Shown one piece after another: positions 45,219 to 50,324 of a stretch of DNA of 64,000 nucleotides (the stretch's first letter is position 1; each line of letters begins with the position of its first letter). Where the stretch lies: the NCBI RefSeq assembly GCF_003865345.1, contig NZ_RMVE01000005.1:248001-312000 (forward strand). The letters are read 5' to 3'. This stretch comes from Nonlabens xiamenensis. Lineage in GTDB: Bacteria; Bacteroidota; Bacteroidia; Flavobacteriales; Flavobacteriaceae. The notes beneath the pieces were generated by a model. The model saw only the letters and a program-made list of their open reading frames with translations, was not told the origin of the DNA and searched no databases. The position numbers were made by a program, and so were the translations under genes.

Positions 45219-45785
45219 TTACAGGCTGTCCTTATTTTTTTTCAGGTAAGCTTGTTGTATCACGCTGATCGGGTAGGTATCTACTTTATAGCCTTCGGCC
45301 TTTCCTGCGGTCGTTGAATCCTGTAGGCTGGACATGGTGATCATAAAATCCATGTGGTCCGGATAAAACTTTTCGGTACTATTCAAAAGGTTACCCGCTA
45401 CCTGATAAGTACTAAAGAGCGTACCATCTGCATAAGCAACAGGAAGTATGATACCGTTATTCTCATCCAACTCAAAGACATTCGGATTCGGCGTGCTAAT
45501 GAGGGTGTAAGCTCTTTCAGACCGCTCTTCACCGTAAAATATTTTATAATCAAAACGTGTGCTATCGGCAGTAGATAGTAAATGAAATTCCATGGGAATG
45601 GAATTGACACCGTTACTGGTAGTGATTTCCAGATCACCTTTATACACACCTAAATAATCGTTGGGAAAGTCGAATGCCTTTTTTACGTCAGCGGGTGTTT
45701 CTTCAGCCGTGGTGGACTCAAACTCTTTGGCCTCTTTACAGGCCAGAAACAAAGGCAAGATCAGAAATGCTATCCATTTTTTCAT
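45219..45785 (-). CDS. lipoprotein of unknown function
   Basis: Encodes 188 residues with a lipoprotein signal (MKKWIAFLILPLFLAC, acylated Cys16). The ATG at 45785 is chosen because it begins the signal peptide; an in-frame extension to 45857 would run into the hairpin of the upstream repeat unit. The mature part is beta-rich (YLGVYKGDLEITTSNGVNSI, ERAYTLISTPNPNVFELDEN) and reminiscent of small lipocalin-like lipoproteins, without a clear family. The gene reads away from the small-RNA array, directly after its last terminator. Confidence 0.75.
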   Translation of the reverse strand: MKKWIAFLILPLFLACKEAKEFESTTAEETPADVKKAFDFPNDYLGVYKGDLEITTSNGVNSIPMEFHLLSTADSTRFDYKIFYGEERSERAYTLISTPNPNVFELDENNGIILPVAYADGTLFSTYQVAGNLLNSTEKFYPDHMDFMITMSSLQDSTTAGKAEGYKVDTYPISVIQQAYLKKNKDSL

Positions 45786-45803
45786 GGAGCGAAAATAGGT
45801 ATT

Positions 45804-45895
45804 AAAAAGAAATCCCGAGTCGTCCATATAGACTTCTCGGGATTTCCCACTAACCAACCAAAAAACTTTATGAAAATTACTCTTAATAACCTTCT
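45804..45895 (-). ncRNA. putative small RNA, tandem unit 1
   Basis: On the minus strand a ~92-base transcript is predicted, starting ~12 bases after the sigma-54-like element (45907-45921). It carries a conserved leader with GGTTATTAAGAGTAATTTTC and GGTTGGTTAGTG, and ends in a perfect 11-bp hairpin: plus-strand GAAATCCCGAG 45809-45819 against CTCGGGATTTC 45836-45846. TTTTT follows on the minus strand (plus 45804-45808), making an intrinsic terminator. A 32-codon frame reads across the other strand (45870-45968) but is not conserved in unit 2. Confidence 0.55.
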
Positions 45896-45906
45896 TATAG
45901 TATGTT

Positions 45907-45921
45907 TCAATTCCCGTGCCA
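45907..45921 (-). promoter_or_regulatory. sigma-54-like promoter of tandem unit 1
   Basis: Minus-strand TGGCACGGGAATTGA matches the sigma-54 -24/-12 pattern TGGCACG-N4-TTGC at 14 of 15 positions, counting N4 as free, with exact spacing; only the final C is A. Confidence 0.5.
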
Positions 45922-45925
45922 AAGT

Positions 45926-45941
45926 ATTATGCGTACATAAT
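45926..45941. promoter_or_regulatory. imperfect dyad next to sigma-54-like element, unit 1
   Basis: ATTATGCGTACATAAT: 6-bp arms ATTATG/CATAAT, located 5 bases upstream (minus direction) of the -24 box. Confidence 0.45.
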
Positions 45942-45976
45942 AAAATTATTACTCATTCTTTGATTTAACTGCCTTG

Positions 45977-46066
45977 AAAAGGAAATCCCGAACGCTCTTG
46001 CAAACCTCCGGGATTTCTCACTAACCAACCAAAAAACTTTACGAAAATTACTCTTAATAACCTTCC
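45977..46066 (-). ncRNA. putative small RNA, tandem unit 2
   Basis: Same organisation as unit 1, 173 bases away: leader GGTTATTAAGAGTAATTTTC and GGTTGGTTAGTG, then a hairpin with plus-strand GAAATCCCG 45982-45990 against CGGGATTTC 46009-46017. On the minus RNA the stem gains a G.U and an A-U pair to reach 11 bp; on the plus RNA the same step is an A/C mismatch. The tail is CTTTTC. The loop sequence differs from unit 1, so stem and leader are kept while the loop varies. Confidence 0.55.
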
Positions 46067-46077
46067 TACCATATTAT

Positions 46078-46092
46078 TCAATTCCCATGCCA
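46078..46092 (-). promoter_or_regulatory. sigma-54-like promoter of tandem unit 2
   Basis: Minus-strand TGGCATGGGAATTGA, the unit-1 element with one change (C to T in the -24 box), same -24 to -12 spacing. Confidence 0.45.
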
Positions 46093-46096
46093 AACT

Positions 46097-46112
46097 ATTA
46101 TGCGCGCATAAT
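46097..46112. promoter_or_regulatory. perfect 16-bp dyad next to sigma-54-like element, unit 2
   Basis: ATTATGCGCGCATAAT, a perfect palindrome, 5 bases upstream (minus direction) of the -24 box; similar to the dyad at 43719-43736. Confidence 0.5.
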
Positions 46113-46144
46113 AAAATACCGAAGAATATCATGGTGGTTGCAGA

Positions 46145-46230
46145 ATAAAGAAATCCCGAGTGATCGAGCGACCTCTCAGGATTTCCTACTAACCAACCAA
46201 AAAAACTTTATGAAAAAATACTCTTCAAAA
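46145..46230 (-). ncRNA. tandem unit 3, probably without its promoter
   Basis: Plus-strand GAAATCCCGAG (46150-46160) against CTCAGGATTTC (46175-46185). The pair C/A on the plus RNA becomes a G.U pair on the minus RNA, keeping an 11-bp stem. GGTTGGTTAG and the CATAAAG leader are retained up to about 46230. Beyond that the similarity ends and no -24/-12 element is present, so the unit looks truncated. A 65-codon plus-strand frame beginning at 46210 overlaps corA and is not credible as a gene. Confidence 0.4.
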
Positions 46231-46347: not shown

Positions 46348-47424
46348 TCAGAGCCATTTTTTCCATCTGAAGAATCCAAGCAAGCTTACAAATATAATGG
46401 CGTTTAGAATCCAGAAGTATTGATAGCCATGCTCCCAGGTCAGTTCTGGTATATGTTCAAAATTCATCCCGTAAATACCAGCCACAAAAGTCATAGGGAT
46501 AAATAACGAACTCACAATAGTCAATACCTGCATGACTTGATTCATTTTATGGCTTACACTGGACAAATACATATCCCTTAGTCCTGCATTGATTTCGCGA
46601 TACGATTCCACCGTTTCTATAATCTGTATACAGTGATCATAGGCATCTTGAAAGTAAGCATGTGTCCTTGAATCGATCAAAGTGCTATCCTCTTTTAATA
46701 ATCTGCTGATGGACTCCCGCAGCGGATAAATGGCTCTTCTTAAACTGAGCAACAACCGCTTATTGCGTTGGGCCTTATTGAGGCTATCCTTTTGTGGTTC
46801 CTCAAATATTTCATCTTCTAATTGGTCCAGGTAATCCCCAATCTGTTCCACGGCGATAAAATAATGGTCGATAACACTATCGATCAACGCATAAAACAAA
46901 TAATCATTTTTAACGGAACGTATTCTCCCTTTACTGTTTTCAATCCGGTCTCTTATGTTCTCAAAAACATCCCCTGTTTTTTCCTGAAAAGTGATAACGG
47001 CATCCTGTGTCAGGATAATACTTACCTGCTCTTCATTGAGTTCGTTGTTTTCTGTATCATAGGAAATCATTTTTATACATTGATAAATATATTCTCCATA
47101 AAACTCGGTTTTAGGACGTTGGGTGGTATTGGCAATATCTTCCAGTAACAAATGATGTAAGTGGAATTTGGATCCAACTTTTTCCAATAAGTCTATATCG
47201 TGTACACCGTCTATATTGAACCAGTTTACCCGGTCTTCCTTGAGCTGATCCAGGAAAATCCCATACTGCTTAGAATAATGATCTTTATCGTATAAAATCG
47301 TTTCTGCTGTGACTTCTCCATCGCGCTCTTCTCCTACATACGAAATAGTTCCAGGTGGCTGAAACACGGTACTTTTTGACTTTGGGGTCGCCTTGCGTCT
47401 AAGTCTTAGCTTTGGGGTCTTCAT
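46348..47424 (-). CDS. corA: CorA magnesium/cobalt transporter
   Basis: Encodes 358 residues. The large cytoplasmic N-terminal domain is followed by two membrane helices near the C-terminus with the essential GMN motif between them (VAGIYGMNFEHIPEL) and a basic tail (FFRWKKWL). The protein forms a pentameric Mg2+ channel in the inner membrane. It follows uvrA by 18 bases on the same strand, so it may share the uvrA transcript. The small-RNA array begins just past its 3' end. Confidence 0.95.
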   Translation of the reverse strand: MKTPKLRLRRKATPKSKSTVFQPPGTISYVGEERDGEVTAETILYDKDHYSKQYGIFLDQLKEDRVNWFNIDGVHDIDLLEKVGSKFHLHHLLLEDIANTTQRPKTEFYGEYIYQCIKMISYDTENNELNEEQVSIILTQDAVITFQEKTGDVFENIRDRIENSKGRIRSVKNDYLFYALIDSVIDHYFIAVEQIGDYLDQLEDEIFEEPQKDSLNKAQRNKRLLLSLRRAIYPLRESISRLLKEDSTLIDSRTHAYFQDAYDHCIQIIETVESYREINAGLRDMYLSSVSHKMNQVMQVLTIVSSLFIPMTFVAGIYGMNFEHIPELTWEHGYQYFWILNAIIFVSLLGFFRWKKWL

Positions 47425-47442: not shown

Positions 47443-50247
47443 CTAAGATAGCTTTTCTGCAATATAAGGAGCGGTATAGCTCTCTTTGACCTTGGCTACC
47501 TCTTCTGGTGTACCGGTGGCTACAAGTCGTCCTCCTTCCTGACCACCTTCAGGTCCTAAATCGATTACATAGTCGGCGCATTTGATCAGATCCATATTAT
47601 GCTCGATCACGATCACCGAATGACCTTTATCAATCAAGGCATTAAAACTGTCTAATAGTTTGTTGATATCGTGAAAATGTAGTCCTGTTGTGGGTTCATC
47701 AAAAATAAACAGGGTCTTATCGTTAGTTGTTCCTTTGACCAGAAAACTGGCCAATTTAATACGTTGTGCTTCACCACCAGATAAGGTTGAGGAGCTTTGT
47801 CCTAAAGTGACATAGCCTAGACCTACATCTTGAAGTGGTTGGAGTTTTTTGATGACTTTTCTTTCTTCGTGTTTCTCAAAAAAAGCAATGGCGTCATCGA
47901 TTGTCATATTTAAGAGATCATCGATATTTTTACCGTGATAAGTTACTTCCAGGACCTCTTTTTTAAATCGCTTCCCTTTACAGGTTTCGCAAGTCAATGT
48001 AACATCTGCCATAAACTGCATTTCGATGGTGACTTCACCATCTCCTTTACAGGTTTCGCATCTACCACCATCCACGTTAAATGAAAAGTGTTTAGCCTTA
48101 TAGTTACGAATTATGGACAATTTCTGATTGGCATAAATATTCCTGATATCGTCGTAGGCTTTGACGTAGGTCACCGGATTTGATCGCGAACTCCGACCAA
48201 TAGGATTTTGGTCAATAAATTCGACCGTCTTGAGGTTTTCAAACTTGCCTTTGATATCAGTAAATTGGCCCGCTTTTTTACCATAACCTCCCAATCTCTT
48301 AAGTAAGGCTGGGTATAAAATTTGTTTGACCAGTGTAGATTTTCCACTACCAGACACTCCTGTAACCATAGTTAGTACACCCAAAGGAAAACGCACGTCA
48401 ATATTTTTTAGGTTGTTTTGACGGGCGCCTACGATGTCAATATGGTATTTATGATTTCTTCGCTTTCGCGGAAGCGGAATCTCCATACTTCCATTAAGGT
48501 ATTGAGCCGTAAGACTATCTGAAGCTAATATTTTCTCCAGACTTCCCGCAGCCACCACTTCGCCGCCATGAGTTCCGGCTTTGGGTCCAATATCTATGAT
48601 TTCATCAGCCGCTTGCATGATTTCCTCATCATGTTCAACCACGATCACCGTGTTACCCAAATCCCTCAGGTTTTTTAATACTTTTATCAAGCGTTGGGTA
48701 TCTCTGGGGTGCAAGCCGATGCTGGGTTCGTCCAGTATATACATGCTGCCCACCAAACTGCTTCCCAAAGAAGTGGCTAGATTGATGCGCTGACTCTCTC
48801 CTCCAGAAAGGCTATTTGATTTTCGGTTGAGTGTTAGATAACTTAACCCTACATCGGCCAAAAAACCTAACCTGTTGTTGATTTCGACCAACAAACGCTT
48901 AGCGACCTGACTATCGTGTTCGTTGAGTTCGAGTTCCTTAAAGAACTCCACTAGTTCCTTAATGGGCATCACCACAAGATCAGTTATCGTAGTATCGTTG
49001 ATCTTTACGTAGGAAGCCTCTTTGCGCAAGCGTGCACCACCGCAATTACTGCAACGTGTTTTGCCTCTGTATCGGGACAACATCACCCTATTTTGAATTT
49101 TATAAGCTTTTGCTTCCAGTTCCTCAAAAAAGGCATTGATTCCTTGAAAATGTTTATTCCCATTCCAAACCAGATCCTTTTCCTTCTGAGTTAATTCAAA
49201 CCAAGGCCGGTGGATCGGAAAATCAAATTTTGCTGCATGCTTAATCAGTTGGTCATTGTAGTAAGACATACTATCTCCTCTCCAGGGGAATACTGCTTTT
49301 TCATATATAGACAAAGCAGTGTTGGGAATGACCAGATCCTCGTCAATACCTATCACATCACCATATCCCTCACATTTCGGACAGGCACCATATGGGTTAT
49401 TAAAGCTAAACAAGTGTGGATTAGGCGCTAAAAACTCCATTCCATCCATTTCAAACTTATTGCTAAATTCTCGAACGGCACTTCCGTTCATATGCTCGAT
49501 ATAGGCTAATCCTTTACCTTCAAAAAACGCGGTGTCCACAGCGTCGGCCAGGCGATTGTAAAAATCTTCATCATCTCTTTTAATGATACGATCTACTACA
49601 ATTCGCACCTCGTCTTTTTTACTGTATTCAAGCCCTTCTTCATCGATGCGATGTATATCATCATTGATCTTGATCCTCGTGTATCCTTGTTGCAATAGGA
49701 CTTGGAGTTGATCCTTGATTTCTCTTTTACCCTTGACAATCAATCGAGTCGTCAACAGTAGCTTGGTACCATCTTCTTGGGATTTTACATAATTAATGAC
49801 ATCGGTAACCGTATCCTTTTTGACCTCATTCCCGGAAATAGGAGAGTAGGTACGACCGATGCGGGCAAAAAGCAATTTTAGGTAATCGTAAATTTCTGTA
49901 CTGGTTCCAACGGTAGACCGCGGATTGGTAGAGTTGACTTTTTGCTCGATCGCAATGGCGGGAGCAATACCTTTGATATATTCTACCTTGGGTTTATTGA
50001 GTCGGCCCAGAAATTGTCGCGCATAGGAAGATAGACTTTCTACGTACCTGCGTTGACCCTCGGCATAAAGTGTATCAAAGGCCAGGGAAGACTTACCACT
50101 TCCTGATAGGCCGGTGATGACCACCAGTTTATTTCTAGGAATCGCGGCATTGAGGTGTTTAAGGTTGTGTAGCTCGGCTCCCTTAATTAAAATATTCTTT
50201 TTAGGGCTTAGCTGATCGATATCGGCAAAAAGGCTTTTTTTGGGCAT
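47443..50247 (-). CDS. uvrA: excinuclease ABC subunit A
   Basis: Encodes 934 residues from the chosen ATG (MPKKSLFADIDQ). UvrA finds bulky DNA lesions and loads UvrB. Two ABC modules are complete: Walker A GLSGSGKSSLAFD and GVSGSGKSTLVKQ, signatures LSGGESQRINLA and LSGGEAQRIKLA, zinc fingers CPKCEGYGD.../CSNCGG and CETCKGDGE.../CETCKGKRF. A TATATTTG lies on the minus strand (plus 50253-50260) only 5 bases before the ATG, so a transcript from it would be nearly leaderless; an earlier start at 50289 would need another promoter. The linker between the modules contains a palindrome copy (PLPRKRR). Confidence 0.97.
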   Translation of the reverse strand: MPKKSLFADIDQLSPKKNILIKGAELHNLKHLNAAIPRNKLVVITGLSGSGKSSLAFDTLYAEGQRRYVESLSSYARQFLGRLNKPKVEYIKGIAPAIAIEQKVNSTNPRSTVGTSTEIYDYLKLLFARIGRTYSPISGNEVKKDTVTDVINYVKSQEDGTKLLLTTRLIVKGKREIKDQLQVLLQQGYTRIKINDDIHRIDEEGLEYSKKDEVRIVVDRIIKRDDEDFYNRLADAVDTAFFEGKGLAYIEHMNGSAVREFSNKFEMDGMEFLAPNPHLFSFNNPYGACPKCEGYGDVIGIDEDLVIPNTALSIYEKAVFPWRGDSMSYYNDQLIKHAAKFDFPIHRPWFELTQKEKDLVWNGNKHFQGINAFFEELEAKAYKIQNRVMLSRYRGKTRCSNCGGARLRKEASYVKINDTTITDLVVMPIKELVEFFKELELNEHDSQVAKRLLVEINNRLGFLADVGLSYLTLNRKSNSLSGGESQRINLATSLGSSLVGSMYILDEPSIGLHPRDTQRLIKVLKNLRDLGNTVIVVEHDEEIMQAADEIIDIGPKAGTHGGEVVAAGSLEKILASDSLTAQYLNGSMEIPLPRKRRNHKYHIDIVGARQNNLKNIDVRFPLGVLTMVTGVSGSGKSTLVKQILYPALLKRLGGYGKKAGQFTDIKGKFENLKTVEFIDQNPIGRSSRSNPVTYVKAYDDIRNIYANQKLSIIRNYKAKHFSFNVDGGRCETCKGDGEVTIEMQFMADVTLTCETCKGKRFKKEVLEVTYHGKNIDDLLNMTIDDAIAFFEKHEERKVIKKLQPLQDVGLGYVTLGQSSSTLSGGEAQRIKLASFLVKGTTNDKTLFIFDEPTTGLHFHDINKLLDSFNALIDKGHSVIVIEHNMDLIKCADYVIDLGPEGGQEGGRLVATGTPEEVAKVKESYTAPYIAEKLS
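48461..48476. repeat. 16-bp iterated palindrome, copy 8 (one substitution)
   Basis: CGCTTTCGCGGAAGCG inside uvrA, read on the minus strand in the third frame as LPRKR, in the linker between the two ATPase modules. Confidence 0.85.
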
Positions 50248-50324
50248 ATGCACAAATATAAGATCGGTGATCGTCCCAGTTTCCCGCATTATTGTAAGAA
50301 AAATGTTAAATAATGTTACATGAT

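Follow-up and report, generated by a model that had tools for sequence, protein, structure and literature searches.

A tandem array of putative sigma-54-type small RNA genes in Nonlabens xiamenensis and its relatives in the Flavobacteriaceae

The window, that is, the whole 64,000-nt stretch of Nonlabens xiamenensis contig NZ_RMVE01000005.1 analysed here, harbors a tandem array at 45804-46225. Three repeat units, detected through a 15-nt repeat family, follow each other at spacings of 173 and 168 nt, and a 109-nt repeat pair within the array shows 89% identity, in agreement with the three head-to-tail units of ~170 bp described in an earlier note on this DNA. The minus strand carries, in its own direction, uvrA, corA, unit 3, unit 2, unit 1 and a lipoprotein gene. 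The features are, in that direction:

47443-50289, minus strand: a gene that we take to be uvrA from its sequence
46348-47424, minus strand: corA (Pfam match, PF01544), upstream of the array
46145-46225, minus strand: unit 3, block and terminator, core seed 46188-46200 (fold prediction and pairing counts; putative role as a tail)
46096-46113, no strand: perfect palindrome TATTATGCGCGCATAATA upstream of unit 2 (repeat analysis and other Nonlabens copies)
46079-46094, minus strand: sigma-54 box of unit 2 (TTTGGCATGGGAATTG; pattern match)
45975-46067, minus strand: unit 2 small RNA with a predicted start, anatomy as in unit 1, core seed 46020-46032, CGT for CAT
45925-45942, no strand: palindrome-like TATTATGCGTACATAATA next to the unit 1 box on its upstream side, a possible regulator site (similar element at equal spacing in other Nonlabens copies)
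45908-45923, minus strand: sigma-54 -24/-12 box of unit 1 (TTTGGCACGGGAATTG; pattern match and comparison with relatives)
45804-45896, minus strand: unit 1 small RNA, start predicted ~12 nt past the -12 element, end at the T-run
45872-45894, minus strand: unit 1 5' hairpin GAAGGTTATT-AAG-AGTAATTTTC (fold prediction)
45849-45873, minus strand: unit 1 single-stranded block TCATAAAGTTTTTTGGTTGGTTAGT, the proposed seed (core 45849-45861; comparison and predicted unpairedness)
45804-45848, minus strand: unit 1 intrinsic terminator (fold prediction, covariation and strand pairing counts)
45219-45785, minus strand: lipoprotein gene downstream of the array (ORF; no Pfam or NCBIfam match)

Units 1 and 2 each comprise a sigma-54 box, a 5' hairpin, a single-stranded block UUUUC(A/G)UAAAG-UUUUUUGGUUGGUUAGU and a terminator with a T-run. 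The boxes proposed earlier hold for these two units; in unit 3, which sits behind corA, there is no good sigma-54 box, and of the 5' hairpin the 5' half is missing. This unit consists of the block and the terminator alone and probably belongs to the corA transcript as its 3' tail. The stretch GGUUGGUUAGU lies immediately 5' of the terminator and is fixed in all three copies. The conserved leader of the earlier note is not uniform: the 5' hairpin and the terminator vary, and what is constant is the stretch between them.

On the minus strand the units fold with z-scores of -4.7, -3.7 and -3.3 (units 1, 2 and 3), and 0/200, 0/200 and 2/200 shuffles, respectively, fold as well. The plus strand likewise folds better than its own shuffles, as expected for hairpins. 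Counts of the stem pairs favor the minus RNA: of 16 pairs, unit 1 forms 16 on the minus strand versus 14 on the plus strand, unit 2 15 versus 12 and unit 3 16 versus 13, which bears out the earlier observation that G.U pairs preserve the stem on the minus strand only. Across 12 Nonlabens copies, 174 of 182 terminator pairs form as minus RNA (95.6% of cells) versus 151 of 182 as plus RNA. Random drift of the stem among relatives had been named as the contrary outcome; instead, these 12 copies show compensatory change, with both-side changes in 6 terminator pairs, a value reached by none of 500 shuffles and compared with at most 4 for slid structures. Covariation was counted on the terminator of the 12 Nonlabens copies only, since the 5' hairpins of different sequence types did not align under MAFFT; an RNAalifold consensus on one alignment placed spurious pairs within the seed and was rejected. 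A simple terminator scan flags unit 3 alone among the three units; the terminators of units 1 and 2 contain internal loops and interrupted T-runs.

The array could also be read on the plus strand, as repeated gene starts (an CTAACCAACC leader, then ATGAAA...) of decayed signal-peptide genes, and by eye the plus strand of unit 1 does present a leader with a 32-codon ORF. We give this explanation hardly any credence and dropped it: pairing favors the minus RNA, the sigma-54 boxes fit the minus strand, and on the GGTTGG strand 119 of 150 motif occurrences have a terminator behind them, versus 15 of 150 when the opposite side and strand are examined. The minus-strand small-RNA reading proposed at the outset holds, and comparison with relatives supports it together with the sigma-54 promoters of units 1 and 2 and the duplication of RNAs of ~90 nt.

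Eight copies of TTTTTTGGTTGGTT(A/T)G occur in the 3.68 Mb genome. Three are those of the array, and three form a second tandem cluster, flanked at one end by a DUF6265 gene and a gene that is presumably rnr, as judged from its sequence, and at the far end by a DUF2807 gene. Of the remaining two, one lies 4 nt past an ORF that matches RskA_C and one behind another ORF. A genome of the same genus (G010) has one copy at the corA site and two at the rnr site, which means that local duplication or loss has set the arrays apart. Matches of the box-plus-seed pattern in named Nonlabens species fall at loci also seen in the genomes of the same genus (L114 with L073, L153 with a G242 place), in line with the placement of the window in Nonlabens.

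In the family, 19 of 60 genomes contain TTTTTTGGTTGGTTAGT, at 30 places in all (reversed control, 3). Searched irrespective of promoter, TTGGTTGGTTAGT occurs at 103 places in 32 of 41 family genomes (reversed motif, 28); the other 9 lack even this 13-nt motif, and the RNA family is not universal in Flavobacteriaceae. A terminator with an energy below -9 lies within 60 nt at 75 of 102 distinct sites versus 3 of 28 for the reversed motif (Fisher p 1.7e-9), and the 27 sites without terminator are about the number expected by chance. At the terminator-type sites the motif is conserved and the terminator sequence is free to vary. Forty-four of the 75 have a same-strand ORF ending no more than 80 nt before them, the position of an mRNA tail, and 31 do not, with tails called on mechanical ORFs of 100 aa or more. 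Outside Flavobacteriaceae, 8 sites were found in 7 of 192 genomes, none with a terminator, just one of these 192 genomes being from the same order. In the genomes searched the RNA is therefore confined to Flavobacteriaceae, a range in which sister families are scarcely represented. What the computations show is the strand and anatomy of the RNA, its promoter motif, how it is conserved, its distribution in the family and its presence at mRNA-tail positions.

As the earlier note had supposed, no named family matches: a scan of the window with Rfam 15 gave no hit at the gathering threshold and, at E<=10, only matches far below the cut-offs, and a scan of 20 related loci returned tRNAs only. Six records of a plasmid collection matched at a chance-like level (best E 0.03). 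A search of the open-access literature found no published account of this RNA family.

The earlier reading had been made to depend on an rpoN gene, and the genome does encode sigma-54 (PF04552 at C5:793932, E 2.3e-52). The boxes of units 1 and 2 read TTTGGCAC/T-GGGAA-TTG. Taken by itself, this genome lends the box little weight, since TTTGGCAY-N5-TTG has 9 matches versus 7 for the reversed control, and it is the comparison with relatives that settles the matter. The stricter TTTGGCAC-N5-TTG has only three matches in the genome, at two small RNA genes and at this genome's copy of the FIFVE gene described below (L175). Among 397 family genomes, a sigma-54 box followed after 18-48 nt by TTTGGTTGGTT was found at 34 places in 29 genomes (reversed control, 1), two of which (L095, L098) resemble chance matches in coding sequence. 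All 66 distinct loci that match box-N14-52-TTTGGTTGGTTA[GTA]T have a terminator (E below -9), a count that is identical with or without exclusion of the 12 of 59 box-plus-seed stretches treated as off-target, 11 for want of A[GTA]T and a terminator and one (L166) by organism alone.

Among stand-alone members of the family whose upstream ORF is on the opposite strand, 15 of 17 have a sigma-54 box within 115 nt upstream, a span chosen after inspection of 22 loci (control windows, 24 of 2716), or 13 of 15 once units 1 and 2 of the window, placed in this class by a mechanical 106-aa plus-strand ORF, are set aside. Elsewhere, such a box is present at 4 of 14 stand-alone members with a same-strand upstream ORF, at 2 of 44 tails and at none of the 27 terminator-less sites. 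With a span of 80 nt, the box is found at 12 of 75 terminator-type sites (control, 10 of 2317). Several of the box-bearing stand-alone loci have, ~150 nt upstream, opposite-strand ORFs of 266-286 aa that resemble one another; several of the 13 are thus probably one locus inherited across genera and are not independent.

Immediately before the -24 box, and always at the same distance from it, 11 of 20 listed upstream regions have a palindrome, (T)TATGCNNGCATA (46096-46113, L002, L073, L116, L118, L138, L143, L148, L150, L153 and L165). Of the 20 regions 18 are from Nonlabens; the element of unit 1 (45925-45942) is a near match. The usual enhancer sites of sigma-54 lie farther from the promoter than this palindrome.

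The neighborhood of the RNA gene is partly conserved. Among the 66 loci, 23 have the order uvrA, small RNA, FIFVE gene, and 7 more have FIFVE downstream with no uvrA close by; the RNA lies directly behind uvrA in many relatives. The order corA, small RNA, lipoprotein gene is found at 9 loci and rnr, small RNA, DUF2807 gene at 4, both being Nonlabens arrangements, and the other 23 have partial or differing neighborhoods. At the present locus the unit 1 terminator ends ~20 nt before the lipoprotein ATG (45785-45804). Because this gap is so short, the lipoprotein gene may depend on read-through from the promoter of the small RNA. Little room being left for another promoter, and the Nonlabens RNA preceding the same lipoprotein gene at the 9 loci mentioned, the sigma-54 transcript might be viewed as a leader of the downstream gene with the terminator as its switch. 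We regard such cis attenuation as very unlikely: at 45 of the 75 terminator-type sites the next ORF is on the other strand, and at 3 none is in view, so that attenuation cannot be the common function, even if read-through into the lipoprotein gene may take place here.

The part of the RNA that is both conserved and, by prediction, accessible is the block. Folding gives 34 of 45 non-redundant loci a predicted 5' hairpin (mean z -2.5); the 11 without it are mostly of the Aequorivita or Galbibacter types. Over the same 45 loci the core has a mean unpaired probability of 0.80, with values above 0.7 in 32. The block common to 17 Nonlabens copies is TTTCATAAAG-TTTTTTGGTTGGTTAGT, three copies having CGT or CAA for CAT and one an AAT seed; its complement, ACTAACCAACCAAAAAACTTTATGAAA, looks like a leader with a start codon. 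Other seed variants carry AAU or AUU for AGU (L088, L089, L090, L103, L104, L118), and L096 (AGAAAA) falls outside the seed pattern. The element UUUCAUA is absent from Aequorivita-type copies, and unit 2 has CGU.

We lean towards reading the array as three copies, two of them complete and one without a promoter, of a Flavobacteriaceae small RNA family, under a sigma-54 control akin to envelope stress, with a conserved seed antisense to translation starts. Sigma-54 polymerase would start the RNA, in which a variable 5' hairpin (absent in some genera) and a variable terminator would keep the seed UU(U)GGUUGGUUAGU single-stranded. The seed is often preceded by UUUCAUA, and together with its upstream block it has the complement ACUAACCAACC...UAUGAAA, which resembles a leader followed by the start codon of an exported-protein gene in flavobacteria. 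Induced along with the sigma-54 envelope and protein-quality response, the RNA would pair across translation start regions and block translation of a set of mRNAs, probably those of envelope proteins. Antisense pairing at start codons is plausible; expression, pairing, targets and physiological cue are what we infer.

Searches for target sites gave mixed results and no convincing target in common. TTTCATA lies within 18 nt upstream of the core at 12 of 89 terminator-type sites versus 0.5 in shuffles, related sequences being counted repeatedly. Terminator-less sites lie upstream of ORF starts, as leaders, in 7 of 27 cases (L233 being doubtful) versus 39 of 1752 random positions (p 1.6e-6); against reversed-motif sites, the better control, the comparison is 7 of 27 versus 2 of 28 (p=0.06). 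The pattern ACTAACCAACCN{0,25}ATG occurs 174 versus 87 times in 100 genomes, and 39 of 50 inspected sites (20 hand-picked, 30 from the listing) themselves have a terminator behind them on the small-RNA strand. In 9 genomes of the same genus, TAACCAAN{0,16}ATGAAA has 113 matches versus 43 reversed, 13 of the 113 being copies of the small RNA. A model with one target found no support: the genes differ among 50 TAACCAAN loci inspected, 20 of them hand-picked. Enrichment of k-mers in leaders is modest and is biased, since most loci were sampled because of the motif.

The same data may be explained by a protein. In that explanation GGUUGGUUAGU beside the terminator is a site for an RNA-binding or processing and stability factor, the mRNA tails are its normal clients, and the sigma-54 RNAs are decoys. 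The 44 of 75 terminator-type sites behind same-strand ORFs suit a protein site equally well, as do a motif that is conserved while the terminator sequence is free and a weak target-site test (7 of 27 versus 2 of 28). A U-rich tract beside a terminator is, moreover, typical of chaperone-bound RNAs. The enrichment of UUUCAUA (12 of 89 versus 0.5) is unexpected for such a module, and the class of RNA-binding protein tied to FopS in Bacteroides was not found, RRM_1 having 0 matches in the genome while a control search detects it in Bacteroides ihuae. We consider a protein-binding 3' end less likely but a serious alternative, and retain antisense pairing as the preferred function.

RybB and MicA of Salmonella depend on Hfq, and the Qrr RNAs of Vibrio occur in several copies and belong to a quorum-sensing circuit of another phylum. 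RybB and MicA are the small-RNA arm of an alternative-sigma (sigma-E) envelope stress response acting on envelope mRNAs, a role demonstrated there, in the passages of PMC1804206 that were available, and proposed here; sigma factor and phylum differ, and as far as the Rfam scans tell there is no sequence kinship. The Qrr RNAs are sigma-54-dependent (PMC10162802, in the part accessible), as is proposed for the present family; the window has no Rfam match to them at the curated threshold.

The closest system found in the phylum is FopS of Bacteroides thetaiotaomicron. According to the sections of PMC11697453 at hand, FopS are multi-copy paralogous small RNAs of Bacteroidota, as in the present family, and have in both cases a single-stranded seed stretch followed by an intrinsic terminator. 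Pairing close to start codons is demonstrated for FopS and proposed for the present RNAs. In contrast, FopS have canonical sigma-ABfr promoters and associate with the RRM protein RbpB (PMC11697453, same sections), whereas units 1 and 2 have a sigma-54 motif; unlike FopS, most members here have a predicted 5' hairpin, and the motif also occurs at mRNA tails.

The sigma-54 regulon predicted in Flavobacterium psychrophilum includes GroES/EL, DnaK, Lon, ClpB, Skp, a gliding operon, exported proteins of unknown function and a putative RNA, Rfp36 (PMC9723704, in the portion available). Rfp36 (TSS 840245) is a putative regulatory RNA of the same family, Flavobacteriaceae, with a predicted sigma-54 promoter; it is likened to the present RNA by that description. 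As far as that portion goes, the regulon is mainly one of quality control, envelope stress, gliding and exported proteins, and its content suggests an envelope and protein-quality cue. For this reason, of the 'nitrogen- or stress-responsive' role offered earlier, the nitrogen half is without support and stress is the better guess.

More tentatively, a single anti-start-codon word carried on sigma-54 small RNAs and on many mRNA tails might constitute a Flavobacteriaceae-wide RNA regulon, the repressor arm of a sigma-54 envelope-stress response, with no RRM protein found and with an evolution independent of sigma-E/RybB and CpxQ. In some genomes, the mRNAs that carry the word in their tails would include that of a sigma-54-controlled exported protein. 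Flavobacteria form a large group of environmental bacteria, described as understudied in PMC9723704, where their sigma-54 regulon was mapped in one species. A small RNA family that recurs, keeps its seed and has a promoter of known type would offer a tractable entry. The same word and terminator in stand-alone RNAs and in mRNA tails offer a natural series for tracing how 3'-UTR RNAs turn into independent genes, or the reverse.

The FIFVE gene is named here after a conserved word, 'FIFVE.GIEFSVFPDGQFDFY', of its product, which has a signal-peptide-like start and an SR/RG-rich tail (L052:1712-2935, L054:370-1485, L175). Two examples of the protein gave no Pfam or NCBIfam match. At 47 of 48 loci the gene has a sigma-54 box in the 220 nt before it, a count in which many rows are close relatives and which may include boxes of a small RNA just upstream; of the 28 loci without the motif upstream, 27 have the box. 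The small-RNA motif lies within 60 nt past the FIFVE stop at 18 of the 40 loci where that stretch is visible, a proportion biased by the many loci that entered the sample because of the motif.

By eye, a subgroup of tails in several genomes has TGTAACAAA upstream and a GCAAC...GTTGC-like terminator (L242, L245, L258, L260, L270, L271). A reversed-motif site, L370, resembles a variant of this subgroup, so that the reversed control is not fully clean. Also by eye, the terminator loop word TGCCTCAAAGCA is common to many tail-type sites across genera despite their differing stems (L054, L057, L064, L178, L210, L212, L235, L254 and others), and is possibly a second functional element.
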